Source of the DNA: Stappia sp. TSB10P1A
Lineage (GTDB): Bacteria; Pseudomonadota; Alphaproteobacteria; Rhizobiales; Stappiaceae
DNA length: 64,000 nucleotides
Reading direction: 5' to 3'
NCBI RefSeq assembly: GCF_900185725.1
Contig: NZ_FYAU01000014.1
Location: forward strand, 1 to 64,000
A program made the translations under genes and the position numbers. Every line of letters starts with the position of its first letter. The stretch's first letter is position 1. Below are positions 7,743 to 47,225 of the stretch, in pieces. The notes beneath the pieces were generated by a model. That model was not told where the DNA came from and did no database searches. It was given only the letters and a program-made list of their open reading frames with translations.

Positions 7743-7759
7743 GCGCGGATAGAAAAACG

Positions 7760-7790
7760 GGCGGCCCGGCAGATGTCGGGCCGCCTTTTT
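7760..7790 (+). terminator. Rho-independent terminator of the first operon
   Basis: A 9-bp G+C-rich stem, GGCGGCCCG at 7760-7768 pairing with CGGGCCGCC at 7777-7785, with an 8-nt loop and then five T (7786-7790). It lies 18 bp after the last ABC gene and ends 16 bp before the 3' end of the convergent dadA. Confidence 0.85.
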
Positions 7791-7805
7791 CAGGTTCGTT
7801 CGCCC

Positions 7806-32250: not shown

Positions 32251-32408
32251 TCGGCATGCAAACGCGCTAAACGCGAAAGACAATCCCGCCGAACGCGCAA
32301 GAGTTGAAATGGTTGCACTCAATTTGTGCAGGCACTGCCTACCCGCTTTTTTCGACGGCTTCGGAGTTTAGAAAGCTCATTCTCTGGTGGACTTCGAGAA
32401 CGGATTTC

Positions 32409-32426
32409 TTAGGATGAATATCCTAA
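32409..32426 (+). promoter_or_regulatory. Perfect palindrome upstream of the Lrp-type gene
   Basis: TTAGGAT-N4-ATCCTAA is a perfect 7-4-7 inverted repeat ending 26 bp before the ATG at 32453. Its position and A+T-rich palindromic form suit an autoregulatory Lrp/AsnC operator. It also argues against starts at 32387 or 32414, which would place the site inside the reading frame. Confidence 0.6.
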
Positions 32427-32452
32427 CAAAAACTCCAGAGGTAGAACGAAAG

Positions 32453-32929
32453 ATGCAAATTGATGAGTTTGACAGAAAAATACTTTCTGTAATTCAAGAT
32501 GATGCTAGCCTATCTATAGCTCAGGTTTCTGAGAGGGTAGGTCTCTCGACAACGCCATGTTGGCGCCGCCTCCAGAAGCTCGAGCGAGAGGGGTATATCG
32601 ACGGTCGCGTAACGCTTTTGAATCAAAGCAAAATCGGCCTCGAGCTCACGGTTTTCGTGATGATACGGACCAGCCAGCATAACACAGCCTGGCTGGAGAA
32701 GTTCAATAGCGTCGTGAGTTTATTCCCGGAAATCGTGGAAGTGAACCGATTGGCGGGCGAGTATGACTATCTCTTGAAGGTTATCACCAAGAGCAATTCG
32801 TCCTACGACGCCTTCTACAAGAAGTTCATCAATCTCATCGAGCTCAATGATGTCACATCCTGTTTCTCAATGGAACAAATCAAGCGAAGTACAAGGCTGC
32901 CACTCGACGCTGCCGGCGGCGGACGCTGA
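32453..32929 (+). CDS. Lrp/AsnC-family transcriptional regulator
   Basis: A 158-aa regulator. The N-terminal HTH begins canonically (MQIDEFDRKILSVIQDDAS, then IAQVSERVGLSTTPCWRRLQKLEREGYI), followed by the AsnC ligand-binding ferredoxin-like domain (VNRLAGEYDYLLKVI). Base use is unlike its neighbours: the first 60 bases of line 32461 are about one-third G+C, compared with over 75% in parts of the following gene. The last codons (LDAAGGGR) are read from sequence typical of the next gene, so the 3' end looks like a recombination junction. It overlaps the next open frame by 83 bp. Confidence 0.85.
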   Translation: MQIDEFDRKILSVIQDDASLSIAQVSERVGLSTTPCWRRLQKLEREGYIDGRVTLLNQSKIGLELTVFVMIRTSQHNTAWLEKFNSVVSLFPEIVEVNRLAGEYDYLLKVITKSNSSYDAFYKKFINLIELNDVTSCFSMEQIKRSTRLPLDAAGGGR

Positions 32930-34604
32930 CGCGCTGATCGCGCGGATCCGCGCCAGCGTCATCGGTGAGGGACGGCCGATCGAAACCCCCTTCGGCCTGC
33001 GCCCGCTGGTCTATGCGGACTATGTCGCCTCCGGGCGCGGACTGTCCTTCCTCGAGGACCTGATCCGCGACCAGGTGCTGCCCGACTACGGCAACACCCA
33101 TACGGAGACCTCGCACACCGGGCGGCGGACGACGGTGCTGCGCGAGACCGCCCGCGAGACCATCCGCAAGGCGCTCGGCGCCGATGAGCGCCATGCGGTG
33201 ATCTTCACCGGTTCGGGCGCGACCTCGGCCGTCAACAAGCTGGTGCGGGCGATGCAGTTGCAGGGACGGCTGCCGCGGCGGGCGAGCCTTGCCGAGATGA
33301 CCGAGGCCGAGCGGCCGGTGGTCTTCGTCGGTCCCTACGAGCACCATTCCAACGACCTGCCCTGGCGCGAGACCGGCGCCCGCATCCGCCGCATTCCGCT
33401 GAACGCGGCCGGCGGCATCTGCCTCGACACGCTGGCGCGCGAGCTCGCCGCCGTGCCGGCCGGGGTGCCGCGCCTCGGCGTCTTCTCCGCCGCCTCCAAC
33501 GTCACCGGCATCAAGACCGACGTGCGGGCGATCGCGAAGCTGCTGCATGCCCATGACGCCATGGTCTTCTGCGACTACGCGGCCGGCGCCCCCTACATGC
33601 CGATCGCCATCGGCGAGACGGCGCCGGGCGCGAACGACCATATCGACGCGCTGGTCCTGTCGCCGCACAAGTTCGTCGGCGGGCCGGGCGCCTCGGGCCT
33701 GCTGGTCTGCGACAAGGCGATCTTCGAGGGCATCGAGCCGACCACCACCGGCGGCGGCACGGTCAGCTACGTGACAGCCGAGGGCCATTGCTACGTGACC
33801 AGCGTCGAGCGGCGCGAGGAGGCGGGCACGCCCAACATCGTCGGCGACATCAAGACCGGCCTGGTGCTGGAGCTGCAGGCGCGGGTCGGCGCCCGCGAGA
33901 TCGAGCGCCGCGAGACGGAGATGGTGGCGCGCGCCATGCGCGCCTGGGCGCAGGAGCCGAATATCGAGCTGCTGGGTCCGCTCAACGCCGAACGCATCGG
34001 CGTCTTCGCGCTCAACATCCGCTGCGGCGCCAAGAAGCTGCATTACGGCCTCGTCGTCGCCCTGCTCAACGACCTGTTCGGCATCCAGGCGCGCGGCGGC
34101 TGTTCCTGCGCCGGCCCCTATGGCCACGACCTGCTCGGCATCGACGGGGCGGACGCCCTGCGCCACCAGCAGGAGGTGCACAGCGGCCGCAGCGTGCTGC
34201 GGCCGGGCTGGGTGCGGCTCGGCTTCAACTATTTCTTCGACGAGCGGACGACGGACTACCTCATCGAGGCGGTGCGCTTCGTCGCCGCCCATGGCGCCGC
34301 CTTCATGTCGCTCTACAAGGTCAATCCGAGCACCGGCGTGTGGTCGGTGGCGAGCGGCGCGGCGCCGGCGGCGCGGCCCGCCTCGCTGTTCGAGGCGCTT
34401 GACGGTGCGACGCCGCCGGCCGGCACCGAGGTGCCCGACTTCGCCGAGTGCCTTGCGATCGCGCAAGACATCGCGCAGAAGGCCAGCGCCACATACCCGT
34501 GCAATCCAGCGATATCGATGCCCGAACAGGAGGATATTCGCTGGTTCTGGTTGCCCCACGAGGCAGCCGAGGCCGCACGTTCCGAGAATGAGGATCGCCT
34601 ATGA
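32847..34604 (+). CDS. Class V aminotransferase-fold PLP enzyme, cysteine desulfurase/selenocysteine lyase-like
   Basis: A 585-aa fold-type I PLP enzyme. The Schiff-base lysine is K275 in LSPHKFVGGPG, and a SufS-like cysteine motif RGGC419SC421AGPYGH is present, consistent with attack on a Cys/Sec sulfur. NTHTETSHTGRRTT near residue 90 is typical of the branch. No start codon lies in its own high-G+C stretch: the only candidates (32847, 32850) are inside the Lrp gene, so the native 5' end may have been replaced. The last 120 bases revert to the lower-G+C style of the following gene, which it overlaps by ATGA. Role inferred: C-S cleavage of a cysteine-like compound. Confidence 0.78.
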   Translation: MMSHPVSQWNKSSEVQGCHSTLPAADADALIARIRASVIGEGRPIETPFGLRPLVYADYVASGRGLSFLEDLIRDQVLPDYGNTHTETSHTGRRTTVLRETARETIRKALGADERHAVIFTGSGATSAVNKLVRAMQLQGRLPRRASLAEMTEAERPVVFVGPYEHHSNDLPWRETGARIRRIPLNAAGGICLDTLARELAAVPAGVPRLGVFSAASNVTGIKTDVRAIAKLLHAHDAMVFCDYAAGAPYMPIAIGETAPGANDHIDALVLSPHKFVGGPGASGLLVCDKAIFEGIEPTTTGGGTVSYVTAEGHCYVTSVERREEAGTPNIVGDIKTGLVLELQARVGAREIERRETEMVARAMRAWAQEPNIELLGPLNAERIGVFALNIRCGAKKLHYGLVVALLNDLFGIQARGGCSCAGPYGHDLLGIDGADALRHQQEVHSGRSVLRPGWVRLGFNYFFDERTTDYLIEAVRFVAAHGAAFMSLYKVNPSTGVWSVASGAAPAARPASLFEALDGATPPAGTEVPDFAECLAIAQDIAQKASATYPCNPAISMPEQEDIRWFWLPHEAAEAARSENEDRL

Positions 34605-36070
34605 TTGACGCATCGCCATCCGCGCAGGGGCTTGAGCAGCTTGAGGCTCGCATCAAGTTCGAGCTTAGCTGCCTGAACCTGCCCGCAGCCAACTGGGTGC
34701 CCGAACAGGTCGCTCCGGACGGCGAGCAGGTCCATGATGTCGTGATCATCGGCGGTGGCATGTGCGGGCTTGTCGCGGCCTTCGCTCTGAGGTCGGGCGG
34801 CATCCGCAATCTCCGCATCCTTGACCGCAACCCTGCCGGTTACGAAGGCCCTTGGCTTACCTATGCCCGCATGGAGACCCTGCGCTCGCCCAAGACGCTG
34901 CCTGGCCCGGCTTTTGGCATGGGGTCCTTGACCTTCCGGGCGTGGTTCCAGGCCCAGTTTGGGTTCAGTGCCTGGGAAGATCTGGACAAGATCCCTCGCC
35001 CCATGTGGATGGACTACCTGAAGTGGTATCGGGAGGTTCTCGACATCCCTGTCGAAAACGGGATCGAGGTCACTCGGATCGCACCCGAAGGCCGCTATCT
35101 GCGGCTTGCGCTTCGGGGCGCGGGGCAGCCGTCGATCCTGACCCGCAGGGTGGTGATGGCAACCGGGCGCGATGGGACCGGCGGGCCGAATATTCCCGCA
35201 TTTGTCGAGGGCCTGCCGCGCAGTCTCTGGGCGCATTCGGCCGACCACATTGATTTCGCGGCGCTCAAGGGCAAGCGCGTGGCTGTTGTCGGAATCGGGG
35301 CATCCGCTGTCGACAACGCGGCCGAGGCGCTCGAGCACGGGGCGGCCGAAGTCCGCCATCTGATCCGGCGATCGCAAATGCCGGTTGTGAACAAGATGAT
35401 GGGCATTGGCTCCTATGGCTTCACGCAGGGCTACTGCCAAATGTCGGACGACTGGCGCTGGCAGTTCATGCGCTACTCCTTCGTCACCCAGACGCCGTCT
35501 CCGCGCGGCTCGACACTGCGCGTCAGCCGCCACCCGAACGCCTTTTTCCATTTTGGTGCCGGCGTTGAGAGCGCCCGCGTCGAACAGGGGCAATTGCTGG
35601 TCGAGACCGCCAAGGGAACGCTGGAAACCGATTTCCTGATCCTCGGGACGGGATTCCGGATCGAGCCCGATGCTCGGCCCGAACTGGCCGAACACAGCGA
35701 CCAGATCCTGCTGTGGAGGGACTGCTATACCCCTCCGCCAGGTCTGGAACATGCCGAACTGGGGAATTTCCCCTATGTCGGGCGTGACTTCGCGTTTCGC
35801 CCCAAGGACCCGGTCAAGTCGTCATGGCTGCGGCAGGTCCATTGCTTCAACTACGGCGCGACGCTGAGTCTGGGCAAGGTGAGCGGCGATATTCCCGGCA
35901 TCAGCGAAGGGGCGCGATGGCTCGCGGAAGCGATCGCGGCAGCGCTTTATACCGAGGATGTCGATCACCACTGGTCGGCGCTGGAGGCTTATGACCAACC
36001 CGAGTTGCTGGGCGACGAATGGCGTCAGTCCCCATGGCCGGAAAACCGTCAGGTGGAGGTGGAGGTATGA
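34601..36070 (+). CDS. FAD/NAD(P)-binding oxidoreductase, monooxygenase-like
   Basis: A 489-aa flavoprotein with an N-terminal FAD motif VVIIGGGMCGLVAAFALRSGG (about residues 48-68), a second nucleotide-binding motif VAVVGIGASAVDNAAEALEHG (about 227-247), and the ILGTGFRIEPD segment typical of flavin monooxygenases. It resembles the SidA/PvdA or YpdA-like groups of NAD(P)/FAD proteins. It is coupled by ATGA overlaps on both sides. Substrate unknown; it may oxygenate the imported compound (inference). Confidence 0.8.
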   Translation: MIDASPSAQGLEQLEARIKFELSCLNLPAANWVPEQVAPDGEQVHDVVIIGGGMCGLVAAFALRSGGIRNLRILDRNPAGYEGPWLTYARMETLRSPKTLPGPAFGMGSLTFRAWFQAQFGFSAWEDLDKIPRPMWMDYLKWYREVLDIPVENGIEVTRIAPEGRYLRLALRGAGQPSILTRRVVMATGRDGTGGPNIPAFVEGLPRSLWAHSADHIDFAALKGKRVAVVGIGASAVDNAAEALEHGAAEVRHLIRRSQMPVVNKMMGIGSYGFTQGYCQMSDDWRWQFMRYSFVTQTPSPRGSTLRVSRHPNAFFHFGAGVESARVEQGQLLVETAKGTLETDFLILGTGFRIEPDARPELAEHSDQILLWRDCYTPPPGLEHAELGNFPYVGRDFAFRPKDPVKSSWLRQVHCFNYGATLSLGKVSGDIPGISEGARWLAEAIAAALYTEDVDHHWSALEAYDQPELLGDEWRQSPWPENRQVEVEV

Positions 36071-36552
36071 GCGATCATATCCTGGAGCGCGCCGCGGGAG
36101 TGGCGCAGGCTGGAGGAGAGCTTGGGGCCGCGTTGGCCACCCGGGCGCGGCTGATGGACCTGACTCAAGGGTCGCATGATGCGGCGCTGCTGCCGAAGAC
36201 CCCCGGCGGACTTGCGCACGGGCTTCGCGCCCATCTGGCCGCGCGCATGTCGCGCATCTGCTCGGACGATGCGCTGGCGCATCACTATGATCGGCTTGGC
36301 GAGGTTTCGCCTGATCTGGCCGACCTGGCGCGGCCGGGCCATCAGCCGGAAGCCCCGCGCCTGGCCGCACTGGTGGCATATGTGGACAAGATGACCCTTC
36401 ATCCCAAGGAAGCCACGGCTCAAGACATCGATATCCTGCGCGATGCAGGTGTTGCAGAGGATGACATCGTTCGTCTGGCCGGCCTGGTGGCTTTCGTGAA
36501 CTATCAGATCCGGGTGGCAAAGGTCTTGCGCGTCATGGAGGGGCAGTCATGA
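36067..36552 (+). CDS. CMD-domain protein, Avi_7170-like
   Basis: A 161-aa protein of the AhpD/carboxymuconolactone decarboxylase-like fold without a CxxC pair. Its distinctive N-terminus (LTQGSHDAALLPKTPGGL) and LVAYVDKMTLHPKEATAQDI match the CMD subfamily usually found paired with an alkylhydroperoxidase-domain protein, as here. ATG 36067 overlaps the stop of the flavoprotein gene, and the 3' end overlaps the next gene by ATGA. The family has no established reaction. Confidence 0.75.
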   Translation: MSDHILERAAGVAQAGGELGAALATRARLMDLTQGSHDAALLPKTPGGLAHGLRAHLAARMSRICSDDALAHHYDRLGEVSPDLADLARPGHQPEAPRLAALVAYVDKMTLHPKEATAQDIDILRDAGVAEDDIVRLAGLVAFVNYQIRVAKVLRVMEGQS

Positions 36553-37127
36553 GCCGGGTAATCACGAAATTCACGACCCGTGTTCCTCATTGGCGTCCCC
36601 ATGTCACACCGGTCGATCTGGATCACGCGAGCGACGAACAGCGCGAGGCGCTGAGGGAAACGCCGTCGAACACCAAGATTTCCGAGTATGTCCTGGTTCT
36701 GGCCCATGATCCCCAGGCGCTGACCCTGCGCACGCCGCTGTTCAACGGCATCATGTATGACCCGGGCGGTCTGTCCCGTGCCGAGCGGGAACTGGGCGCG
36801 GTGGCGGCGTCCTTCGTCAATCGCTGCATCTATTGTGCGGCGGTTCATGCCAGTCGCTACAATCAGATCACCAAAGACAGCAGCGTCATGCAAAAGGTGT
36901 TCCTGGATGGCGAGAAGGCAGACATCGACCCCCGTGCCAAGGCCATTCTGAGCTTCGGGGTCAAACTGTCGCTATGTCCGCCCGAGATCACAGCCGAGGA
37001 TGTGGACGCCCTGCGCGCGGTCGGACTGGACAGCCAGGAGATTCTGGACCTGACGCTTTCGACGGCGCTTTTTGGCTGGGCCAATCGCCTCATGCATACT
37101 TTGGGTGAGCCTGTAGAGAAGTCCTGA
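36549..37127 (+). CDS. Alkylhydroperoxidase-domain protein, Avi_7169-like
   Basis: A 192-aa AhpD-type protein. The active-site motif is C93-I-Y-C96 followed by H100 (AAVH), the arrangement used for thiol-dependent peroxidase or disulfide chemistry. PGGLSRAERELGAVAASFVNRC precedes it as in the family. It forms a pair with the preceding CMD protein; such pairs co-occur with flavin-dependent oxidoreductases (family knowledge). It is followed by a hairpin and the TRAP transporter. Confidence 0.8.
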   Translation: MSRVITKFTTRVPHWRPHVTPVDLDHASDEQREALRETPSNTKISEYVLVLAHDPQALTLRTPLFNGIMYDPGGLSRAERELGAVAASFVNRCIYCAAVHASRYNQITKDSSVMQKVFLDGEKADIDPRAKAILSFGVKLSLCPPEITAEDVDALRAVGLDSQEILDLTLSTALFGWANRLMHTLGEPVEKS

Positions 37128-37141
37128 CGGTCAGGACCAAT

Positions 37142-37161
37142 CCGGGGGAGGAGACCCCCGG
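37142..37161 (+). other. Hairpin upstream of dctP
   Basis: CCGGGGG (37142-37148) pairs with CCCCCGG (37155-37161); the loop AGGAGA is purine-rich. No T-run follows. It lies between the AhpD-like gene and dctP, whose own ribosome-binding site (GAGGAGAC, near 37169) is just downstream. Confidence 0.5.
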
Positions 37162-37182
37162 CGCTTAAGAGGAGACGGTTAT

Positions 37183-38160
37183 ATGACTCGCACATTCAGG
37201 ATATTGGCGGTGGCAGCAGTGACGGGCCTGGCCTCCGCAATGCCTGCGGCAGCCCAGACGCTGCGTCTGGCCACAGTTGTGTCTGCGCCGCATCCCTGGG
37301 TGGATGCTGCCGAGGTGTTCAAGACCGAGGTCGAGGCGAAAACGGGTCTGACCGTCGAGATTTTCCCCGGTGGCCAGCTCGGGAACGACCAGACCGTGGT
37401 CGATGAGATGCGCATCGGAACGGTCGATGTGATGATCGGCGGCGTCCAGAATATCTCGCCCTTCGTCAAGAAATTCGAGTTCTTCAGCCTCAACTATCTT
37501 TTTGGCGGAATGGACAGTTTCCGCGCGGCGACGGATCCGCAAGGCGAGATCTTCGCCCATTTCAAGCAGGAAGTGGCCGATGCCGGAGTGGGGCTGAACT
37601 TGCTGGCGCTGACCGGCGGCGGCACGCGCAATCTGTCGACGTCGTCGGGACCCGTCACCAAACCGGAGGACCTGCAAGGCACGCGCATGCGCGTGACGGG
37701 CTCGGCCCTGGACGGCGAGACCTGGCAGACCTTCGGGGCCCTGACCACCTCGCTGCCCTGGACCGAGGTCTATACGGGGGTGCAGACCGGCGTTGTCGGT
37801 GCGTTTGAAAGCACGATCAGCGGGTTTTACGGCGCGCGTCTGTATGAAGTGGCGAAATACCACAACAAGACCGAGCACCAGATCATGATGAGCCATATTT
37901 CCATCAGCGAGCTGACATGGGGCAAGCTCTCGGAAGAAGAGCGGGCGGTCATCGAAAGTGCAGCCATCGCGGCAGCGGCCCATGGGACCGACATGGGCGA
38001 GAAATATGACGCCGAGCTCATCAACCGGCTGGCCGAACAGGGTGTGACGGTCTCCGAGGTCGACAAGGATGCCTTCATCGCAAAGATCATCCCCTTGCAC
38101 GAGACCTATGCCGACCGCCTTGGGGCGAGGGACTTGTTGGAGATTATCCGCGGGCTGTAG
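37183..38160 (+). CDS. dctP: TRAP transporter substrate-binding protein, DctP family
   Basis: A 325-aa periplasmic binding protein. A signal peptide ends at AAAQTLRLA (residue about 25). Family hallmarks are the FPGGQLGNDQTVVDEMRIGTVD region and the conserved arginine in QGTRMRVTGS, which usually binds a carboxylate. The ligand is therefore probably an organic anion. Base composition is lower in G+C than the flanking liv and dab genes. It is first of a dctPQM set, with a terminator-like hairpin after it. Confidence 0.93.
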   Translation: MTRTFRILAVAAVTGLASAMPAAAQTLRLATVVSAPHPWVDAAEVFKTEVEAKTGLTVEIFPGGQLGNDQTVVDEMRIGTVDVMIGGVQNISPFVKKFEFFSLNYLFGGMDSFRAATDPQGEIFAHFKQEVADAGVGLNLLALTGGGTRNLSTSSGPVTKPEDLQGTRMRVTGSALDGETWQTFGALTTSLPWTEVYTGVQTGVVGAFESTISGFYGARLYEVAKYHNKTEHQIMMSHISISELTWGKLSEEERAVIESAAIAAAAHGTDMGEKYDAELINRLAEQGVTVSEVDKDAFIAKIIPLHETYADRLGARDLLEIIRGL

Positions 38161-38169
38161 TCGGCAACC

Positions 38170-38198
38170 GGCCACGGACCTTGTCCGTGGCCATTTTT
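38170..38198 (+). terminator. Attenuator-like terminator between dctP and dctQ
   Basis: A 9-bp stem, GGCCACGGA (38170-38178) pairing with TCCGTGGCC (38184-38192), with a 5-nt loop, then ATTTTT. It is a textbook intrinsic terminator just before dctQ, with no new promoter obvious after it. It would terminate most transcripts after dctP and let a fraction continue into dctQM, matching the need for excess binding protein. Confidence 0.8.
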
Positions 38199-38208
38199 CA
38201 ATGAGGGG

Positions 38209-38712
38209 ATGATGCGTACTCTAAATACCCTTCTTGAAAGGGTGATGATCTTTGTTGCCAACTGCCTGTTCGCGATTTTCATATCCGCGATCCTGTATCA
38301 GGTTGTGGCCCGCAACTATCTGATGATCTCGGTCAACTGGACGGATGAAGTCGCGCTGTTCTGTTTTGTCTGGTCGGTGTTCTTCGGTGCGGCCGTGGCG
38401 TTTCGTCGTGGGGTGCATTATGTGGTCGAAATTCTTCCGCACCGGTTCATTACGCTGAACAACATCCTGCGCCTGTTCGGGTCGCTGGCTTGCCTTCCGG
38501 TGATTTACGTCCTCGTCGTCCATGGGCAGATTTTCGCCGAGATGGGCTGGCGGAGAAGCTCTGTCGCGCTGCAAATGCCGATGGTCTACGCCTTTGCCGC
38601 CATCCCGATTTCGGGCGTAGCCATGGCGCTGTTTGCGATCGAGGTCATTCGTGACGACTTTCGTCGTCTGCGAACCCGCACGCCCGTCGGACGACAGCCT
38701 GAGGATTACTGA
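38209..38712 (+). CDS. dctQ: TRAP transporter small permease, DctQ family
   Basis: A 167-aa membrane protein with four hydrophobic segments and the DctQ-type sequence NWTDEVALFCFVWSVFFGAAVAFRRG (the conserved W-x-E-E/D region). Two adjacent ATG codons (38209, 38212) follow GAGGGG; the second has better spacing. It ends 1 bp before the DctM start. Confidence 0.9.
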   Translation: MMRTLNTLLERVMIFVANCLFAIFISAILYQVVARNYLMISVNWTDEVALFCFVWSVFFGAAVAFRRGVHYVVEILPHRFITLNNILRLFGSLACLPVIYVLVVHGQIFAEMGWRRSSVALQMPMVYAFAAIPISGVAMALFAIEVIRDDFRRLRTRTPVGRQPEDY

Positions 38713-38713
38713 C

Positions 38714-40009
38714 ATGCCCCCCTTTCTCACGCTGATTCTCAGCTTCCTGGGTCTGATCGCGTTGCGCGTGCCGATTGCCTTCGCCATTGGCCTGGCGTCG
38801 ATCATCACGATCTGGCAGCTCGGTATCCCGCTGACCTCCGTCATCAACCAGATGTTCGCCAGTATCAATTCGTTTCCGCTGCTGGCGGTTCCGTTCTTCC
38901 TCCTGCTTGGACGTTTGATGAACGACGGAGGAATTACCGATCGCTTGCTGAATTTCGCGGACGCGACTGTCGGACACATCCGGGGTGGGCTGGGGCATAT
39001 AAACGTCATGGTATCGATGATGTTTGCCAGCCTGTCGGGGTCGGCCGCGGCCGATACAGCCAGTGTGGGAGGGGTGCTGATCCCGGCGATGAAGAAGGCG
39101 GGGTATCCGGCGCCGTTTTCCGTCGCGTTGACGGCGGCGTCCTCTGTATTGGGAGGGATAATACCGCCGTCCATCCTTATGGTGATCTATGGCGCGTTCG
39201 GGAACGTCTCCGTCGGCGCCCTCTTTCTGGGCGGTATTGTACCGGGAATTCTGGTGGGCCTGTCCCAAATGGGCTACACTTACGTTGTTGCAGGTAAGTT
39301 CGACGTAAAGCCAAAAGAAAAAGCCTCGTTCAAACGTGTTGTCGAGACCGGTCTGCATGCTGCGCCGCCGATGATCCTGCCGATCGTCGTCCTCGGTGGG
39401 ATTATCATGGGCGTCTTCACCGCTACCGAAGCGGCGGCCATTGCCGTGGCGGTCGGGTTTTTGCTGTCAATGGGCTTTTATCGCGCCATCCGGATCAGAG
39501 ACCTGCCCAAGATATTCTCGGATTCGGTCATCTCGTATTCGCTGCCCATGTTTGCGGTCGCGTCGGCGGGGATCATGGGGTGGTTGATTTCCTATCTGGG
39601 CATTGCGACCGATGCGGCCACGTTCATCCTCTCGGTGACGGATACGCGCATCGGGTTGATGCTGATGATCATGGGGTTCATGCTGATCATCGGGACGGTC
39701 CTGAGCCCGGTCACCGCCGCCATCATCTTTCTGCCCATCATCCAGAGCATCGGCAATGTCGGCGGAATAGATCAGGTGCATCTGGGTCTTATTGTCATCC
39801 TGTCGCTGACCCTCGGACTGATTACGCCGCCATACGGGATTTGCCTCCTGATTGCGACGCAGATCGGGAATGTCTCCAGCCTGCGCGCGTTCGTGGCAAT
39901 CATGCCCTTGATAGGACTGGTCATGGCGATCATCGTATTGGGGATCGTGTTTCCAGGACTGTTCATGTATCTGCCTTGGACTTTCTTGCCCGATGCATTC
40001 CCCAAATAG
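38714..40009 (+). CDS. dctM: TRAP transporter large permease, DctM family
   Basis: A 431-aa membrane protein with about 12 membrane segments and the family stretch GLGHINVMVSMMFASLSGSAAADTASVGGVLIP around residues 98-130. It forms the Na+-driven transport unit with DctQ. Its TAG stop (40007-40009) lies within a block that is homologous to the end of an ATC-hydrolase gene, so the gene's extreme 3' end may have been set by a recombination junction. A+T content is higher than in the downstream genes. Confidence 0.92.
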   Translation: MPPFLTLILSFLGLIALRVPIAFAIGLASIITIWQLGIPLTSVINQMFASINSFPLLAVPFFLLLGRLMNDGGITDRLLNFADATVGHIRGGLGHINVMVSMMFASLSGSAAADTASVGGVLIPAMKKAGYPAPFSVALTAASSVLGGIIPPSILMVIYGAFGNVSVGALFLGGIVPGILVGLSQMGYTYVVAGKFDVKPKEKASFKRVVETGLHAAPPMILPIVVLGGIIMGVFTATEAAAIAVAVGFLLSMGFYRAIRIRDLPKIFSDSVISYSLPMFAVASAGIMGWLISYLGIATDAATFILSVTDTRIGLMLMIMGFMLIIGTVLSPVTAAIIFLPIIQSIGNVGGIDQVHLGLIVILSLTLGLITPPYGICLLIATQIGNVSSLRAFVAIMPLIGLVMAIIVLGIVFPGLFMYLPWTFLPDAFPK

Positions 40010-40074
40010 GCCATCTGCTGTCCTGCAACCGCGATGGCGGCTCCTGCAGCGGCGACAATCCGGGGCAGGAGCTT
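40006..40074 (+). pseudogene. 3' remnant of an ATC-hydrolase-family gene
   Basis: Read from 40006, the frame gives IGHLLSCNRDG, then SCSGDNPGQEL. This matches IGHLLSCNRDG, then FCIGYNPRMEL, in the intact ATC-hydrolase-family protein at 46755-47225 (nucleotides 47082-47150); 58 of 69 bases are identical by my alignment. Nothing upstream matches: that space is dctM. The fragment includes the family's Cys-Asn-Arg-Asp-Gly motif but no start, so it is a decayed 3' end. It marks the right edge of the lower-G+C segment. Confidence 0.75.
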
Positions 40075-40121
40075 CCATCCACGAACCTCCCTCCCGGGTC
40101 TCTTGAGAACGGACCAACCCC

Positions 40122-41420
40122 ATGTTTTCCAGCAAGCAGATCTCGGCATCCCTGTGGGCGGACACGGCGCCGCCCAGGCCGCCGGCGCCCCCGGTCTCCG
40201 GCCGCATCGAGACCGATGTGGCGGTCATCGGCGGCGGCTTCTCGGGGCTTTCCACGGCCCTGCACCTGGCCCGCGCCGGGCACCGGGTCACGGTGCTGGA
40301 AGGCATGGAGGTCGGCTTCGGCGGATCGGGCCGCAACAACGGCCAGGTGATCCCGACGATGACGGCGGCCGAGCCGGATGCGATCGAGACGCGGTTCGGC
40401 GAGACCGGCGAGCGCTTCACCGCCCTGGTGCGCGACAGCGCCGCCTATCTGTTCGACACCGTCCGCGAGGAAGGCATCGACTGCGAGGCGGAGCAGACCG
40501 GCTGGTTCCAGCCGGCGCACCGGGAAAGCCGGCTGAAGCTGAGCCGTGCCCGTGTCGAGGCCTGGGCGAAGCGCGGCGCGCCGACCCGGCTGGTCGATGC
40601 GGCCGAATGCGCCAGCCTGCTCGGCTCGGGTCGCTGGTTCGGCGGCATGTACAACCCGACCGGCGGCCATATCAACCCGCTGGCGCTGGCCCGCGGCCTG
40701 GCGAGCGCCTGCGAGGCGAAGGGCGTCGCGATCCACGAGAAAAGCCCGGTCGAGGCGGTGGAGCGGCGCGACGGCCGCTGGCACCTGCGCACGCCCGCCG
40801 GCGAGGTCGTCGCCCGCGCGGTGATGCTGGCGAGCAATGCCTATACCGGCGTCCTGTCGTCGCGGCTGGCGCCGAGGGTCGCCCGCTCCGTCGTGCCGGT
40901 GCTGTCCTGGCAGATGGCGACGCGCCCGCTCACGGAGGCGCAGCGCCAGGTGGTGGTGCCGGGCCGCCAAGCGGTCTCCGACACCCACGGCGACCTGCAT
41001 TTCTTCCGCTACGACAAGCGGAACCGCCTGGTGACCGGCGGCGCGCTGGCGCTCGGTCACAACGGCCCGGACCGGCTGCGCGAGCTCGTCGGCCGCCGGC
41101 TGCAGACGGCCTTCCCGGTGCTCGGCAAGCCGGAGTTCGACTTCGTCTGGAACGGCTATATCGGCATGACCGAGGACCGCTTCCCCTTCATCTGCCAGCT
41201 CGGTCCCGATTTCTGGTGCTGGGCCGGCTGCAACGGCCGCGGCGTCGCCCTGTCGATCTCGCTCGGCCGCGAATTCGCCGCGGCGATCGCCGGCACCCCG
41301 GTTGCCGATCTCGCCCTGCCGATGTCCGATCCCAAGCCAATCCCCCTGCACGGTCTGGTCACGACCTTCGCCCCGCCGGTGATGCTCCCGCTCTACCGGT
41401 GGCGCGACGGCCGCGACTGA
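40122..41420 (+). CDS. FAD-dependent oxidoreductase, DAO/PuuB-like
   Basis: A 432-aa flavoenzyme of the DAO superfamily. The FAD motif DVAVIGGGFSGLSTALHLARAG is at about residues 31-52, followed by the GSGRNNGQVIPT segment seen in gamma-glutamylputrescine oxidase-like and opine oxidase-like enzymes, and the C-terminal WAGCNGRGVALSISLGRE. It probably oxidises an amine or amino acid C-N bond. It is the first intact gene of a unit with two ATC-hydrolase-family genes and an ABC importer, and its style is that of the native high-G+C genes. Confidence 0.87.
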   Translation: MFSSKQISASLWADTAPPRPPAPPVSGRIETDVAVIGGGFSGLSTALHLARAGHRVTVLEGMEVGFGGSGRNNGQVIPTMTAAEPDAIETRFGETGERFTALVRDSAAYLFDTVREEGIDCEAEQTGWFQPAHRESRLKLSRARVEAWAKRGAPTRLVDAAECASLLGSGRWFGGMYNPTGGHINPLALARGLASACEAKGVAIHEKSPVEAVERRDGRWHLRTPAGEVVARAVMLASNAYTGVLSSRLAPRVARSVVPVLSWQMATRPLTEAQRQVVVPGRQAVSDTHGDLHFFRYDKRNRLVTGGALALGHNGPDRLRELVGRRLQTAFPVLGKPEFDFVWNGYIGMTEDRFPFICQLGPDFWCWAGCNGRGVALSISLGREFAAAIAGTPVADLALPMSDPKPIPLHGLVTTFAPPVMLPLYRWRDGRD

Positions 41421-41445
41421 CCCAAGCAGGACAGCCAAGAGGACG

Positions 41446-41964
41446 ATGCCCCACATGACCCAGCACACCACCAGCGAGCCGGTCGTCACGCTCGACATGC
41501 TGAAGGCCGCCTTCGCCATGCGCGCCAAGGCCTATGCGCATATGTTCGATGTCCTGCGCGAGGCCTATGGTGCCGAGCGCGCCGTCGAGCTGATCGCCGA
41601 ATCCACCCGCCGCCTCGGCAAGGACATGGGCAAGAAATTCGCGCATCTGGGCCCGGGCGACCTGCCGGGCCTGAAGGACGCCTTCATCGGCGGCATCCCG
41701 TGCTCGGCCGAAATGTTCGCGCCCGAGATCAAGGCGTGCGACGACGAACGTCTGGAAATCCAGTTCCACCGCTGTCCGCTGAAGGACACGTGGACGGAGC
41801 AGGGCCGCAGCGAGGAAGACCTCGAGCTGCTCTGCAAGGCCGCCGGAGCCATCGACGGCGGCCTGTTCACCGAGGCCGGCTTTACCTTCAAGGGGGAAAC
41901 CTGGACAAAGGGCAAGACCGGATGTTGCCTGCTGCGGGTCGAGCCCGGCGTCGGTGCAGGCTGA
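41446..41964 (+). CDS. ATC-hydrolase-family protein (first copy)
   Basis: A 172-aa protein of the L-2-amino-thiazoline-4-carboxylate hydrolase family. The helical N-terminal half (MLKAAFAMRAKAYAHMFDVLREAYG) precedes a Cys-containing core (IPCSAEMF, then FHRCPLKDTW) and a LCKAAGAIDGGLF segment. The family's founder opens the 2-aminothiazoline ring on the way to L-cysteine. An in-frame ATG at 41455 has better ribosome-binding-site spacing than 41446. It is paired with a second member at 46755, with the importer genes between them. Confidence 0.75.
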   Translation: MPHMTQHTTSEPVVTLDMLKAAFAMRAKAYAHMFDVLREAYGAERAVELIAESTRRLGKDMGKKFAHLGPGDLPGLKDAFIGGIPCSAEMFAPEIKACDDERLEIQFHRCPLKDTWTEQGRSEEDLELLCKAAGAIDGGLFTEAGFTFKGETWTKGKTGCCLLRVEPGVGAG

Positions 41965-42041
41965 AACGACCGTCATCCCGGCCGCGGGGTGACCCCAACA
42001 AACAACAAGACAAGCTCTTCCAGATACAGGAGTAGATCACT

Positions 42042-43166
42042 ATGACCATGTCTCGCAGGACCACTCTCGGACTGTTTGCCGGCGTTGCCGGCATGCTCGC
42101 CGTTCCGGCCGCCGCGCTCGCCGACGGCCCGGTCTATCTCGGCTACCAGTTGCCGCTGACCGGCAACACGGCGCAGTACGGCCAGGACTTCAAGACCGCC
42201 GCCGAGATCGCCCTCAAGGACTTCAACGCCTCCGGCAAGCTGAAGGTGCCGGTGGAGATCATCTTCGAGGACTCGCGCTCCGACGCGAAGGAAGGCGTCG
42301 CCATCGCCCGCAAGTTCGTCGACGACAAGCGCATCGTCGCCGCGCTCGGCGACTTCACCTCGACCGTGTCGATGGCCGCCGCCCAGGTCTACCAACGCGC
42401 CGGCATGGCCCAGCTCAGCCAGACCGCCTCGCACCCGGACTATGCCAAGATCTCCGAATGGCAGTTCCGCAACATCACCACCCAGGCCCAGGAAGGCGTC
42501 TACAACGCCGACTGGATGACCCAGAACGGCCTGAAGAAGATCGCGGTGATCGCCGAGCAGACCGACTGGGGCCAGTCGGTGGTCAAGGACTTCGCCGAGC
42601 AGGTCAAGGCGAATGGCGGCGAGGTGGTCTTCACCGAGTTCTTCAACCGCGGCCTGCCGGACTTCCGCTCGATCATCACCAAGATCGAGCGCGCCAAGCC
42701 GGACGCGATCTACACGGGCTTCTTCTATGAGGACGGCGCCCAGTTCCTCAAGCAGATGAAGCAGCTCAACGTCGAGACCCCGGTCTATTCGACCTCCGCC
42801 GCCTACAACCAGAAGCTCGTCGAGCTCGCCGGCCCGGCGGCCGAAGGCCTGTTCCTGACGGTCACCTTCCTGCCCAACAGCGAGAGCGAGAACGTCAAGA
42901 CCTTCGTCGACGAGTGGAAGGCGGCGCGCGGCGGTGCCGAGCCCGGCCAGTTCCCGGCCCAGGCCTATGACGCGGTCAACATCATGCTGGAAGCGGTCGC
43001 CCGCGCCTATCCGGACGTCTCGCGCCAGAACGTCCGCGACGAGCTCGCCAAGACGACGGACTTCCCCGGCGTCACCGGCGTCACGTCCTTCGACGAGAAC
43101 GGCGAGGCGCTGAAGCAGCTCACCAAGGCAACGGTGACCGACGGCCAGTTCGTCCCGGTCAAGTAA
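42042..43166 (+). CDS. ABC transporter substrate-binding protein, Leu/Ile/Val family (second system)
   Basis: A 374-aa periplasmic binding protein. A Tat-like/Sec signal (MSRRTTLGLFAGVAGMLAVPAAALA) is followed by VYLGYQLPLTGNTAQYGQDFKTAAEIALKDFN, the family opening. It is only distantly like the binding protein at 3080, so the two importers have separate specificities. Flanking ATC-hydrolase-family genes suggest an amino-acid-like heterocycle or cysteine derivative as ligand (inference). Confidence 0.92.
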   Translation: MTMSRRTTLGLFAGVAGMLAVPAAALADGPVYLGYQLPLTGNTAQYGQDFKTAAEIALKDFNASGKLKVPVEIIFEDSRSDAKEGVAIARKFVDDKRIVAALGDFTSTVSMAAAQVYQRAGMAQLSQTASHPDYAKISEWQFRNITTQAQEGVYNADWMTQNGLKKIAVIAEQTDWGQSVVKDFAEQVKANGGEVVFTEFFNRGLPDFRSIITKIERAKPDAIYTGFFYEDGAQFLKQMKQLNVETPVYSTSAAYNQKLVELAGPAAEGLFLTVTFLPNSESENVKTFVDEWKAARGGAEPGQFPAQAYDAVNIMLEAVARAYPDVSRQNVRDELAKTTDFPGVTGVTSFDENGEALKQLTKATVTDGQFVPVK

Positions 43167-43175
43167 CGCCGCGTT

Positions 43176-43210
43176 CCCCGCTCTCCGGCCGTAAGGCGCG
43201 GGGAGCGGGG
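43176..43210 (+). promoter_or_regulatory. Stem-loop between binding-protein and permease genes (second Liv-type system)
   Basis: CCCCGCTC (43176-43183) pairs with GAGCGGGG (43203-43210) and the stem can be extended inward by about three pairs. It begins 9 bp after the binding-protein stop. No T-run follows. The remaining gap to the permease (to 43337) holds no supportable gene. Confidence 0.6.
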
Positions 43211-43337
43211 CCGCAGCCGGGCTCCGCAGACCTGGCGCATGCCGAGGACCTGCCGCCGCCACGACCCGGTCTCCGGGCGGCGGGGACGGCTCCCCCTTGC
43301 GCCTGGTCCCCGTGTTCCCAGGTCAGGACAGGTTCCC

Positions 43338-44252
43338 GTGATAGATCCCTATTACCTGCAACAATTCACGATCGGCATATCGCTGGGCATGGTCTATGCC
43401 CTGATGGCCATCGGCTTCACGCTGATCTTCGGCGTCCTCAACGTCGTCAACTTCGCCCATGGCGAGGTCTACACGATCGGCGCCTTCGCCGGCATCATGG
43501 CGATCGCCGCCTTCGGCCCGCCCTTCCTCGTCATCGTCTTCATCGTCCTGGCGGTCGGCGCGCTGTCCGGCTTCAGCCTGGAGCGGGTGGCGTTCCGACC
43601 GTTCCGACGGTTCTCGGACGAGGCTTCGCTGAAATCGCGGGCGATGCGCGAGGCGACGCTGATGTCTTCGCTCGCCATGTCGATCATCGCCCGCGAGGCG
43701 ATGGAGCTGCTGTTCGGCTCCGAGTTCCAGACCATCGACATCAGCTACCTGATCAACAAGCCGATCTCCCTCGGCCCGGTGACCATCGTCAACGGCGACA
43801 TCATCATCTTCCTGGTCTCGGTGCTGATGCTGGGCGGGTTGCAATGGCTGCTGAAATACAGCGCCATCGGCCTGTCGATCCGGGCGGTGTCGAACAATCC
43901 CTTGGGCGCGAAATATGTCGGCATCAACACCGACCGCACCATCGTGCTGACCTTCGTCATCGGCTCGATGATGGGCGCGCTCGCCGGCATTCTCGTCGGC
44001 CTCTATTACGGCGCGGTGTTCCCCTCGATGGGCTTCATTCCGGGGGTAAAGGCCTTCGTCGCCATGGTGATGGGCGGGTTGAGCTCGATCCCGGGTGCGG
44101 TGATCGCGGCGCTGGTGCTGGGGGTGGCGGAGAGCCTGTCGACGACCTTCATGTCGTCGGTCTGGGCCGACATGGTCGCCTACCTGTTCCTGATCGTCAC
44201 CCTGGTGTTCTTCCCGCAGGGGCTCTTCGGAGCGAGGAGGGAACGTGTCTAA
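43338..44252 (+). CDS. Branched-chain-type ABC transporter permease, LivH-like (second system)
   Basis: A 304-aa membrane protein with the signature MAIGFTLIFGVLNVVNFAHGEVYTIGAF near residues 20-47. The start is GTG 43338 after AGGACAGG; the open frame reaching back to 43239 has no similarity and crosses the leader. It overlaps the LivM-like gene by 8 bp. It is unusual only in a cytoplasmic Arg-rich loop (FRPFRRFSDEASLKSRAMRE). Confidence 0.92.
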   Translation: MIDPYYLQQFTIGISLGMVYALMAIGFTLIFGVLNVVNFAHGEVYTIGAFAGIMAIAAFGPPFLVIVFIVLAVGALSGFSLERVAFRPFRRFSDEASLKSRAMREATLMSSLAMSIIAREAMELLFGSEFQTIDISYLINKPISLGPVTIVNGDIIIFLVSVLMLGGLQWLLKYSAIGLSIRAVSNNPLGAKYVGINTDRTIVLTFVIGSMMGALAGILVGLYYGAVFPSMGFIPGVKAFVAMVMGGLSSIPGAVIAALVLGVAESLSTTFMSSVWADMVAYLFLIVTLVFFPQGLFGARRERV

Positions 44253-45255
44253 GGATCTGATCACATCGGCGGTCCTCAAGATCGCCATCCTGGCGGTGCT
44301 GTTCGCCGCCCTTCCGGCCCTGCTGGCCTATCTCGGCCAAGGCTATCTCTACCAGGTCGTCATGCTGGCGCTGATCTTCTCGCTGCTGGCGGTGTCGCTG
44401 CAACTGGTCACCGGCATCGCCGGCCTGCTGCATCTGGGCCATGCCGCCTTCTACGGCGTCGGCGCCTATATCGCGGCGCTGGCCGGGGCCGATTACGGCA
44501 TCGGCTTCACCCTCGGCCTGCCGCTGGCGGGCCTCGGCGCGGCGGCGATCGCCTTCGTCGTCGCCCTGCCGACCATGCGGCTCGTCAGCATCTATTTCGC
44601 CGTCGCCACGCTCGGCATCGGCCAGATGATCTTCCTCGTGCTGCAGAACTGGGTCGAGGTCACCAAGGGCCCGAACGGGGTGATGCTGTTCACCGGCATC
44701 GACCTGTTCGGCTACACGGTCGACAGCGAGCTCGGCACCTATTTCGTGGTGGCGACGATCGTCTGCGCCTCGATCTGGGTCATCCACCGGCTGAGCCATT
44801 CCTACTACGGCAATGCGCTGCGCAGCCTGCGCGAGGACGACCAGTGCGCGGATGCGATGGGCATCGACACGGTGCGGCTGAAGATCGAGGCCTTCATGAT
44901 CTCGTCCTTCTTCGCCGGGATCGCCGGGGCCTTGTGGGCCTATACCACCGGCTACATCTCGCCGATGGACTTCGATTTCTCGGAATCGATCCTGATCCTC
45001 GCCATGGTCGTGGTCGGCGGGCTGGGCAGCATTCCCGGCGCCGTCATCGGCGCCCTGCTCCTGATCCTGCTGCCCGAGGCGCTGCGCGGCGTCGGCGACA
45101 TCCGCAACATCATCGTCGGCTTCGTGCTGTTCTTCTCGATCCTGTTCCTGCCCAAGGGACTGTTCGGCGAGGTGCCGGCGCTGAACTTCATCCGCCGGCA
45201 GTTCGGCTCCGCCTGGCAGGACAATCCCGACAAGCAGAAGGTGGGCTGGAAATGA
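44245..45255 (+). CDS. Branched-chain-type ABC transporter permease, LivM-like (second system)
   Basis: A 336-aa membrane protein with the LivM stretch GIAGLLHLGHAAFYGVGAYIAAL and the loop LRSLREDDQCADAMGIDTVRLKI. GTG 44245 is preceded by GAGGAGGGAAC and overlaps the previous stop by 8 bp. Its stop overlaps the ATPase start by ATGA. Confidence 0.93.
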   Translation: MSKDLITSAVLKIAILAVLFAALPALLAYLGQGYLYQVVMLALIFSLLAVSLQLVTGIAGLLHLGHAAFYGVGAYIAALAGADYGIGFTLGLPLAGLGAAAIAFVVALPTMRLVSIYFAVATLGIGQMIFLVLQNWVEVTKGPNGVMLFTGIDLFGYTVDSELGTYFVVATIVCASIWVIHRLSHSYYGNALRSLREDDQCADAMGIDTVRLKIEAFMISSFFAGIAGALWAYTTGYISPMDFDFSESILILAMVVVGGLGSIPGAVIGALLLILLPEALRGVGDIRNIIVGFVLFFSILFLPKGLFGEVPALNFIRRQFGSAWQDNPDKQKVGWK

Positions 45256-46007
45256 GCGCCATGCTTGAGGTGGACAATGTGTCCCGGCGCTTCGGCGGCC
45301 TGATGGCGGTCGACAGCGTCACCACCACGGTCGGGGAAGGGGAACTCGTCGGGCTGATCGGCCCGAACGGCGCCGGCAAGACGACGCTGTTCAACCTGAT
45401 CTCCGGCTTCACCCCGGTCTCCTCCGGCGAGATCCGCTATCGCGGCGAGACGATCAGCGGCCTCAAGCCGTCGGTGATCGCCTCGAAAGGGGTCTCGCGC
45501 ACGTTCCAGAACCTGCGCGTCTTCCCCAACATGACCGTGTTCGACAATGTCTCGGTCGGCGCGGTCGGGGCCATCGGCCAGAGCCCGTGGCAGGCGATCA
45601 CCGGCGGCTCGAAGCGGGCGCAGCAGATCTCCGAGCGAAGCTGGGAGGCGCTGGAGAAGGTCCGGCTGACCCAATACGCCAACGATCTTGCGGCCAACCT
45701 TGCCTATGGCAAGCGCAAGTATCTGGAGATCGCCCGCGCGCTGGCGATGAACCCGGACCTGCTGATCCTTGACGAACCGGCGGCGGGACTGAACGATTCC
45801 GAGACGGCGGAGCTTGCCGCCTTCATCAAGGAACTGCATTCAAGCGGGATCACCGTCATGCTCGTCGAGCACGACATGGGTCTCGTGATGAGCATCTGCG
45901 AGCGGATCGTCGTGCTGGCGTCGGGCCGCAAGATCGCCGATGCGGAACCGGCGGTCGTCCGGCAGAACCGCGAGGTCCTGGAAGCCTATCTGGGGGTGGA
46001 CGAGTGA
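45252..46007 (+). CDS. Branched-chain-type ABC transporter ATPase, LivG-like (second system)
   Basis: A 251-aa ATPase with Walker A GPNGAGKT near residue 35, the LivG-type signature LAYGKRKYLEIARAL, Walker B LLILDEPAAGLN and H-loop LVEHDM. Unlike the LivG-like protein at 6268 its D-loop is canonical. It is coupled by 4-bp overlaps to both neighbours. Confidence 0.93.
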   Translation: MSAMLEVDNVSRRFGGLMAVDSVTTTVGEGELVGLIGPNGAGKTTLFNLISGFTPVSSGEIRYRGETISGLKPSVIASKGVSRTFQNLRVFPNMTVFDNVSVGAVGAIGQSPWQAITGGSKRAQQISERSWEALEKVRLTQYANDLAANLAYGKRKYLEIARALAMNPDLLILDEPAAGLNDSETAELAAFIKELHSSGITVMLVEHDMGLVMSICERIVVLASGRKIADAEPAVVRQNREVLEAYLGVDE

Positions 46008-46714
46008 ACGTTCTCGAAATCGCAAACCTGTCCCTGCGGATCGGCGTCCAGGACATCCTGCACGACATCAGCCTGGACCTGCCCGAAAAGGGCATCTACG
46101 CCATTCTCGGCGCCAATGGTGTCGGCAAGACCAGCCTGATGCGCTGCATCTCCGGCATCTACCACCCGACCGGCGGCGAGATCCGCTACGAGGGCAAGAA
46201 CATCGTCGGCCTGAAGAGCCACCAGATCGTCGATCTCGGCATTCTGCAGGCCCCCGAGGGGCGGCAGATCTTCTCCAACATGAGCGTGCTGGAGAACCTG
46301 ACCATCGGCGGCGGGCCGCTGAAGACCGCAGAACTCGACCGGGTGCTCGGGCTGTTCCCCAAGCTCAAGGAACGGCTCAAGCAGGGCGCCGGCTCCCTGT
46401 CCGGCGGCGAGCAGCAGATGCTGTGCATCGGCCGCGCCCTGATGCGCCGGCCCAAGGTGCTGCTGCTCGACGAGCCTTCGCTCGGCCTTGCGCCGATGCT
46501 GGTGCGCTTCATCTTCGACCTGGTCGAGGAGATCCGGGCGCAGGGCTACTCGATCCTGATCGTCGAGCAGAACGCCAAGGCGGCGCTGCGCATCGCCGAC
46601 CGGGCCGCGGTGATCGAGGGCGGCAAGATCGTAATGGAAGGCGCGGCCAAGGATCTCGCCAATGACAGCCGCGTCGCCGATGCCTATCTGGGAGGGCATG
46701 TCGCGGCGCATTGA
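46004..46714 (+). CDS. Branched-chain-type ABC transporter ATPase, LivF-like (second system)
   Basis: A 236-aa ATPase with Walker A GANGVGKT at about residues 36-43, the signature LSGGEQQMLCIGRAL, Walker B LLLLDEPSLGLAP and H-loop IVEQNA. It starts with GTG inside the preceding stop (GTGA). It is followed after 40 bp by the second ATC-hydrolase-family gene. Confidence 0.93.
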   Translation: MNVLEIANLSLRIGVQDILHDISLDLPEKGIYAILGANGVGKTSLMRCISGIYHPTGGEIRYEGKNIVGLKSHQIVDLGILQAPEGRQIFSNMSVLENLTIGGGPLKTAELDRVLGLFPKLKERLKQGAGSLSGGEQQMLCIGRALMRRPKVLLLDEPSLGLAPMLVRFIFDLVEEIRAQGYSILIVEQNAKAALRIADRAAVIEGGKIVMEGAAKDLANDSRVADAYLGGHVAAH

Positions 46715-46754
46715 GCTGCGACAACGGGCACGACATACGAAAGAGGGAACGACG

Positions 46755-47225
46755 ATGACGCTGCCGATGATCGAGAAACGCCGCATCGAGGCCGCGGTGC
46801 TCAAGCATGTCTTCGACGTGCTGGTGGAGCGGCACGGGCGCGAGGAGGCGGAAAAGGTGATCGGCGAGGCCGTCTCCAACTCCGCCATCGCGCAAGGCAA
46901 GGAGTTCCGGGAGAAGGAGCCGAGCGAGCCTGACCTTGAGAACTTCGCCGACCTGCTGCCGCTGTGGCAGATGGACGACGCGCTGCAGATCGAGGTGCTG
47001 GAGAAGGGGCCGGACCGGCTCGACTTCAACGTCAAGCGCTGCCGCTACTCAGAGGTCTACAAGGAGATGGGGCTCGGCGATATCGGCCACCTGCTGTCTT
47101 GCAACCGCGATGGCGACTTCTGCATCGGCTACAATCCGAGGATGGAGCTGACGCGCACCCAGACGATCATGAAGGGCGCGTCCCATTGCGACTTCCGCTA
47201 TCGGCTGAAGCCGGCGGCCGAATAG
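46755..47225 (+). CDS. ATC-hydrolase-family protein (second copy)
   Basis: A 156-aa protein of the L-2-amino-thiazoline-4-carboxylate hydrolase family. The helical N-terminus (RRIEAAVLKHVFDVLVERHGREEAEKVI) is followed by FNVKRCRYSEVYKEMGL and the Cys motif HLLSCNRDGDFCIGYNP, with a C-terminal MKGASHCDFRYRLK; the conserved Cys residues are probably functional. ATG 46755 follows AAGAGGGAAC; the longer frame is not supported. A truncated homologue of its 3' part lies at 40006. It is the last gene before a strong terminator. Confidence 0.8.
   Translation: MTLPMIEKRRIEAAVLKHVFDVLVERHGREEAEKVIGEAVSNSAIAQGKEFREKEPSEPDLENFADLLPLWQMDDALQIEVLEKGPDRLDFNVKRCRYSEVYKEMGLGDIGHLLSCNRDGDFCIGYNPRMELTRTQTIMKGASHCDFRYRLKPAAE

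Follow-up and report, generated by a model that had tools for sequence, protein, structure and literature searches.

Traces of a foreign six-gene insertion, bordered by an ATC-hydrolase scrap, at an aminotransferase-oxidase locus of Stappia sp. TSB10P1A

In the genome of the marine bacterium Stappia sp. TSB10P1A (Hyphomicrobiales, Stappiaceae in the NCBI taxonomy), a few codons of an ATC-hydrolase gene are found directly behind dctM, a gene of a TRAP transporter. The question raised by this locus is how the scrap came to lie there, and what it records about the genes next to it. The locus is part of a stretch of 64,000 nucleotides (contig NZ_FYAU01000014.1, positions 1 to 64,000), which we refer to as the window. 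A sequence-only reading of the window had proposed that the genes at 32.3-40.0 kb, a segment of lower G+C content, were inserted into, or recombined onto, a resident ATC-hydrolase locus. Comparison with relatives identifies as a foreign insertion into the Stappia chromosome a low-G+C cassette of six genes (~34.43-40.06 kb, ~5.6 kb), which lies between the resident genes for a class-V aminotransferase (AMT) and an FAD-dependent oxidase (DAO), and within the resident AMT gene. The same comparison assigns 32.4-34.4 kb, comprising an Lrp-type gene and most of AMT, to the resident locus; the proposed insertion thus stands for the six genes but not for the region to their left.

Relatives without the insert are collinear with the window on both sides. 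They include Stappia sp. WLB 29 (L024, with the same coordinates as the same-genus genome G081) and Stappia indica (L025, to which L007 is identical over 1.5 kb). For 32.3-34.4 kb the identity is 82-90% with L024-L026 and 79% with L027. In a blastn search, 37.0-48.3 kb is collinear with L024 and L025 from position 40060 onwards (92% over 8251 bp); the alignments of L005-L008 also start at 40060, those of L026, L027 and L028 at 40070, 40101 and 40133, respectively. The G+C content is 60.8% in the cassette, 70.3% in the AMT body and 66.4% at 40.06-47.2 kb. The lower-G+C segment is therefore real, except that its dip at 32-33 kb coincides with the Lrp-type gene, which is common to Stappia relatives.

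The whole cassette, in the same gene order, is found in two genomes from the order that includes Antarcticimicrobium (Rhodobacterales), namely G825 (74% DNA identity over 34670-40002; proteins 61-89%) and G1048 (71-72% DNA identity, in two pieces). The underlying DNA searches scored two candidate places per genome, so that copies may be missed. Of 394 genomes from the family to which the Antarcticimicrobium genome G464 belongs (NCBI order Rhodobacterales), one showed the whole cassette, as did 2 of 390 from the order of G464 (the samples overlap); among 397 genomes searched of the order of the Stappia strain itself, its own was the only one.

The ATC-hydrolase scrap and the right junction

The scrap is best described by reference to the resident, intact gene at 46755-47225 (plus strand), which belongs to the ATC-hydrolase family as had been stated (PF14196, 135.8 bits; cut-off 28.1 bits) and whose product is 98-99% identical in L024 and L025. 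The 69 bp at 40006-40074 are identical to 47082-47150 in 58 positions, exactly as first counted, in the reading frame of ATC hydrolase and including the codons for Cys-Asn-Arg-Asp-Gly; the runner-up places for the 69-mer at 47082 in the window reach 38/69 on the plus strand and 36/69 on the minus strand. A tblastn search of the whole genome with the 46755 product, proposed earlier as a check for the window, recovers the block over 39997-40086 (E 1.9e-5). The block is, however, not ATC-derived over its full 69 bp: the last 15 bp (40060-40074) align with the 3' end of AMT in relatives, leaving 40006-40059 as the ATC part, or ~40010-40059 if the dctM stop codon is counted as dctM. This scrap (plus strand) covers roughly codons 110-127 out of 156, is truncated on both sides, and agrees with 47082-47135 in 47 of 54 positions. 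Shuffling the rest of the window 100 times with dinucleotides preserved gives at most 34 matches over both strands, and the real remainder of the window reaches 32/54 on the plus strand. The shuffles rule out a chance match, and by this measure the block is homologous to the ATC_hydrolase family. As DNA, the 69-bp block has matches in 64 of 397 genomes at E 0.01; of 24 loci fetched besides its own, 23 hold a 46755-type ATC gene.

For a comparison with other ATC genes we collected 83 rows with at least 36/54 identities and dropped six without CNRD; some of the 77 rows kept repeat one gene. Ten of the 18 core codons never change residue in these copies, four of the ten (CNRD) being invariant through the row selection. 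Since the core is so highly conserved, a short scrap of almost any such ATC gene would look alike. F13 and Y17 of the 18-codon stretch are present in all 77 copies, and the scrap has S and D instead. This loss fits decay, and the scrap is probably without a role and decaying. It reaches at best 47/54 to any ATC gene compared, whereas orthologues of relatives agree with the window's own 46755 gene in 48-52 of the same 54 positions; the scrap is therefore not a recent copy, and a recent duplicate of the window's own gene was rejected. A genome search with PF14196 gave no domain match at the scrap and lists only 41515-41928 and 46779-47201 in the source genome. A partial PF14196 match on contig C2 of G079, considered as a second copy of the scrap, was rejected as a distant family member (best 33/69).

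The right seam can be read almost base by base. Similarity to dctM of G825, whose gene ends 10 bases later, extends to 40002, the dctM stop codon occupies 40007-40009, the ATC scrap runs from 40006 (or 40010) to 40059, and from 40060 to 40106 (plus strand) follows what remains of the 3' end of resident AMT, which aligns with the AMT end of L005-L008 and L024-L026. The block thus marks the right junction of the insertion, as had been suggested, with the alignment of relatives starting at 40060. No ATC similarity was found upstream of 40006; the missing upstream part of the ATC gene, with dctM in its place, was correctly described. In both G825 and G1048 the unit extends from FMO, its first gene, to the stop codon of dctM; dctM of the window is therefore complete and naturally ended, with the ATC scrap beginning at the cassette end. 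The scrap is cut at both ends, and therefore at least two joints are needed, one between dctM and ATC and one between ATC and the AMT end. At the latter, 'AATCCG' of the presumed donor ATC and the resident 'CCGGGG' could share CCG at 40060.

Behind the leftover AMT end lies the resident DAO gene (40122-41420, plus strand; PF01266; 92-94% amino-acid identity in L024 and L025), whose product resembles the L-pipecolate oxidase AmaA (261 bits, under the cut-off of 600). In L024, AMT spans 7179-8987 and DAO starts at 9001; an AMT end of this kind also precedes DAO in L005-L009 and L025-L027. The region upstream of DAO was compared in ten loci (L005-L009, over 1.5 kb only, and L024-L028), three of which repeat the genome of another. 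The resulting seven genomes consist of six of the genus Stappia and one Hoeflea-labelled metagenome-assembled genome (L026). AMT stands directly before DAO in six of the seven, and ATC-like sequence is missing upstream of DAO in all of them, the best scores of 27-29/54 in these loci being at background level; the locus in Stappia is therefore an AMT-DAO locus rather than an ATC locus. Two further loci, L010 (which repeats L028) and L011, reach 26-27/54 against the ATC 54-mer. In the remaining genome, Stappia sp. SP245 (L028, 8431-9001), AMT is absent and an Lrp gene lies directly before DAO; AMT is therefore a variable part of the locus.

The left junction and the six-gene cassette

The left side of the locus consists of the Lrp-type regulator gene (32387-32929, plus strand; NCBIfam Lrp/AsnC matches below cut-offs; 93% amino-acid identity to the gene at this position in L024 and L025) and the resident part of AMT (32847-34430, plus strand; PF00266; start codon possibly too far upstream). 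In 90-bp bins, the DNA identity of AMT to L024 is 0.78-0.93 over 32849-34288. Near the seam it falls from 0.92 (bin ending at 34288) to 0.74 (to 34375), 0.63 (to 34456) and 0.39 (to 34536); in the same four bins L024 and L025 agree at 0.92, 0.87, 0.70 and 0.82. As these two also diverge there, the fall before 34456 is partly natural variability, and the clear break lies at 34457, from where the window agrees with L024 at 0.39-0.42 and L024 with L025 at 0.82-0.98. Stappia-like AMT residues persist through VPDFAECL at 34431. The left junction zone with the foreign AMT 3' tail extends over 34431-34604 (plus strand), the crossover being somewhere in ~34431-34539.

The last residues of the window's AMT (RWFWLPHEAAEA...) match best to loci of the AMT-DAO-ATC type, L039 (E 3e-11) and L046 (E 7e-11), the best Stappia match being 3e-7. 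As DNA, the tail matches best to L083, Antarcticimicrobium (83% over 52 bp at 34522-34573). These matches mark the AMT tail left of the cassette as foreign and like the AMT tails of AMT-DAO-ATC operons. That the change from resident to foreign sequence falls within AMT would be expected if AMT served as the anchor for homologous recombination. The hybrid AMT frame stays open and overlaps the next gene by 4 bases. Resident AMT sequence is missing between ~L024:8772 and L024:8941, a loss of at most ~170 bp.

The cassette, all on the plus strand, begins with the gene for a flavin-dependent monooxygenase/oxidoreductase (FMO, 34601-36070; PF13738 and others; 78% amino-acid identity in G825, 71% in G1048). 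The second gene (36067-36552, its start inferred within the longest reading frame from 36019; 61% in G825) encodes a small CMD-like protein without a Pfam match; the G1048 copy matches the product of the third gene weakly (29%, E 1e-6), and in plasmid annotation the gene at this place is a 'hypothetical protein'. The third gene codes for a peroxidase-related enzyme of the CMD family (PRX, 36549-37127; TIGR01926 above cut-off; 87% in G825). The TRAP genes encode the solute-binding protein DctP (37183-38160; PF03480; 80% in G825), the small permease DctQ (38209-38712; PF04290; 72%) and the large permease DctM (38717-40009; TIGR00786 matched to its last position; 89%). No further likely gene was picked within the insert from the list of open reading frames. 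The insert does not show the features of a transposon: it has no end repeats, its junction zones having no word of more than 7 bases in common, whether direct or inverted, and Pfam and NCBIfam scans of its genes (one small protein without match) gave no transposase or recombinase.

Parts of the cassette occur more widely. Among plasmids, 217 records match it, none over more than 80% of its length, with 65-72% DNA identity in the 15 matches listed. The FMO protein reaches 61-68% in the best 15 of 332 matches and DctM 39-63% in the best 15 of 81; a search with the block and its flanks returned 29 records, covering at most 42% of the query among the 15 matches listed. FMO-CMD-PRX alone is common, in Rhodobacterales, Stappiaceae-family and rhizobial genomes and on plasmids, with gene content and order as in the window. 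Eight of nine enlarged loci (L201-L209) have AMT ahead of the three genes, as do L157 and L158, and a search with the L152 gene (matching PF02317) as query placed an octopine-dehydrogenase-like gene behind them in all nine; the window, in contrast to the octopine/nopaline-dehydrogenase-like continuation of these loci, goes on with DctPQM and then DAO. For the octopine-dehydrogenase partner, the genome of the strain itself holds only a 27% match, on another contig. Across L201-L209, L157 and L158 the neighbourhood consists of Lrp, AMT, often one more gene, FMO, a CMD-like gene and PRX, joined by the octopine-dehydrogenase-like gene in L201-L209; its recurrence suggests a single pathway.

Four Stappia relatives (G075, as L152 5981-9881, G074, G079 and G081) carry a different TRAP set, with a DctM 63% identical to that of the window; in G075 this set is followed by an octopine-dehydrogenase gene (PF02317). 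In the three genomes with both on one contig, it lies ~58-68 kb from the DAO locus. The genome of the strain itself shows no second match at E 1e-20.

Proposed history and its rivals

Among 80 DAO loci surveyed for operon order, several of which end early, 20 have the order AMT, DAO and a 46755-type ATC gene; in four more (Stappia-type, L024-L027) a 41446-type gene follows. The scraps on the two sides of the cassette, the AMT tail on the left and the 3' part of ATC on the right, are therefore the outer genes of one operon type, and for this reason the idea of an invaded ATC locus, although not borne out for Stappia, may hold for the donor. In such a donor, most likely a Rhodobacterales-like one, the cassette would have taken the place of DAO and of the 5' two thirds of ATC in an AMT-DAO-ATC operon, giving AMT-cassette-ATC'. 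This piece would then have recombined into Stappia, its left end pairing with homologous AMT sequence and its right end making an illegitimate joint at 40060, at the cost of the ~170 bp or less of resident AMT end. We give this history as a whole, from the replacement in the donor to the entry into Stappia, roughly even chances. The TRAP importer and the flavoprotein module would enlarge the resident catabolic operon. All genes from Lrp through the solute-binding-protein (SBP) gene are on the plus strand, and the gaps are -4 to 55 bp within the cassette (the FMO/CMD overlap depending on the CMD start), 112 bp before DAO and 25 bp after it; because the six genes are co-directional with overlaps or short gaps, they may be co-transcribed. 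A promoter scan found none.

A number of observations weigh against this account. The arrangement AMT-cassette-ATC' was found in no genome. The 27 kb read of G825 contain neither AMT nor ATC, the neighbours are unrelated to the locus of the window, and PF14196 has no match in the G825 genome, although the control genomes gave none either; the G1048 contig, which reaches only ~0.8 kb upstream of FMO and ~0.4 kb past dctM, likewise shows neither gene. In L157 and L158 the AMT gene close to FMO has no tail of this kind. The tail is short, and as its best match L039 is an Acuticoccus, of the Hyphomicrobiales, the order of the donor is unproved. The scrap agrees with the 40 best ATC loci in 43-47 of 54 positions and is too short and too conserved for placement in a tree. 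With respect to co-transcription, a strong terminator-like hairpin between dctP and dctQ (38170-38192, 10 pairs followed by a T run) speaks against one uniform transcript, the total terminator count of the scan being not above shuffles.

The chief rival is a capture in one step, in which Stappia received the cassette directly and picked up the 54-bp ATC piece at the joint, by template switch or as a ligated fragment, from its own gene or from donor DNA; the piece would then have drifted. Short fillers are known from illegitimate joints; G825 has the cassette but no ATC, as does G1048 as far as its short contig reaches, and the scrap equals the strain's own gene as well as any other (47/54). 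The 54 bp by themselves cannot decide between the two histories. A filler, however, leaves unexplained why the left side carries a foreign AMT tail of the same operon type as the scrap, and with seven mismatches in 54 bp the scrap stands further from the own gene than the orthologues do, so that a recent own copy is improbable unless drift was fast. We consider this capture unlikely overall, though to be taken seriously.

The original proposal, in which this Stappia lineage once had a resident ATC-hydrolase gene between AMT and DAO that the insertion destroyed, draws on the position of the scrap exactly at the junction and on one distant locus, L099, the only one of the 80 in which AMT is followed by an ATC-family gene, upstream of DAO but not adjacent to it. 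The genomes compared argue the opposite: none of the seven shows ATC-like sequence upstream of DAO, an outcome named beforehand as refuting the proposal, AMT runs straight into DAO in six, and, with the AMT end kept at 40060-40106, the ATC gene would have to sit inside the AMT coding region. By these comparisons the proposal is largely refuted, and we regard it as very improbable. Still more improbable is an assembly artefact, with six chimeric or contaminant genes in a Stappia contig. The deviating G+C content and the absence of the whole cassette from every other of the 14 genus genomes would agree with it; both flanks, however, lie on one contig and follow the gene order of relatives, completeness and contamination of the 5.13 Mb genome are rated at 99.66% and 0.38%, and AMT forms an open hybrid frame with a 4-base overlap into FMO.

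Related genes, known systems and module exchange

Downstream of DAO, a second, divergent member of the ATC-hydrolase family is resident at 41446-41964 (plus strand; PF14196, 51.3 bits). Together with the 46755-47225 gene it flanks ABC transporter genes in one cluster; as the two share only 28% identity, they may differ in role. Another member of the family, in a Stappia relative (L178, G079:C2:22318-22515), lies near a transposase-like reading frame.

We note that the account with one homologous and one illegitimate end resembles homology-facilitated illegitimate recombination, characterized by Amarir-Bouhram et al. (2011; PMC3240628) by one homologous end, one illegitimate end and deletion of resident DNA. 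Here, too, one end of the insert lies in a homologous gene, AMT being common to donor-type loci and Stappia, the other end probably meets non-homologous DNA, and little resident DNA (at most ~170 bp) is lost. The cases differ in that the history of the present locus is read from a genome only and that an extra scrap remains at the illegitimate end. For arrays of immunity genes of the Vibrio type VI secretion system, a 2017 study (PMC5361080) proposes that modules enter by one-sided homology and leave a relic of the displaced gene on the other side. Whole immunity genes are kept there, whereas the Stappia locus retains a resident AMT end of 47 bp and an ATC scrap of 54 bp that is probably from the donor.

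The event itself is ordinary horizontal gene transfer with a legible scar: both seams of the acquired operon insertion, and its probable history, can be closely traced. The shared aminotransferase links two modules, AMT-DAO-ATC and FMO-CMD-PRX-transporter, which aids guesses at their pathway. Tentatively, and with somewhat less confidence than in the history proposed above, we suggest that AMT may be the common anchor on which two catabolic modules can be exchanged, DAO-ATC on the one hand and FMO-CMD-PRX with a transporter on the other; in an unsampled donor the second would have taken the place of the first inside one operon, and Stappia would then have merged both behind one AMT. If this is true, the scars record the swapping of metabolic operon modules via homology in a constant first gene, as has been proposed for effector/immunity loci.

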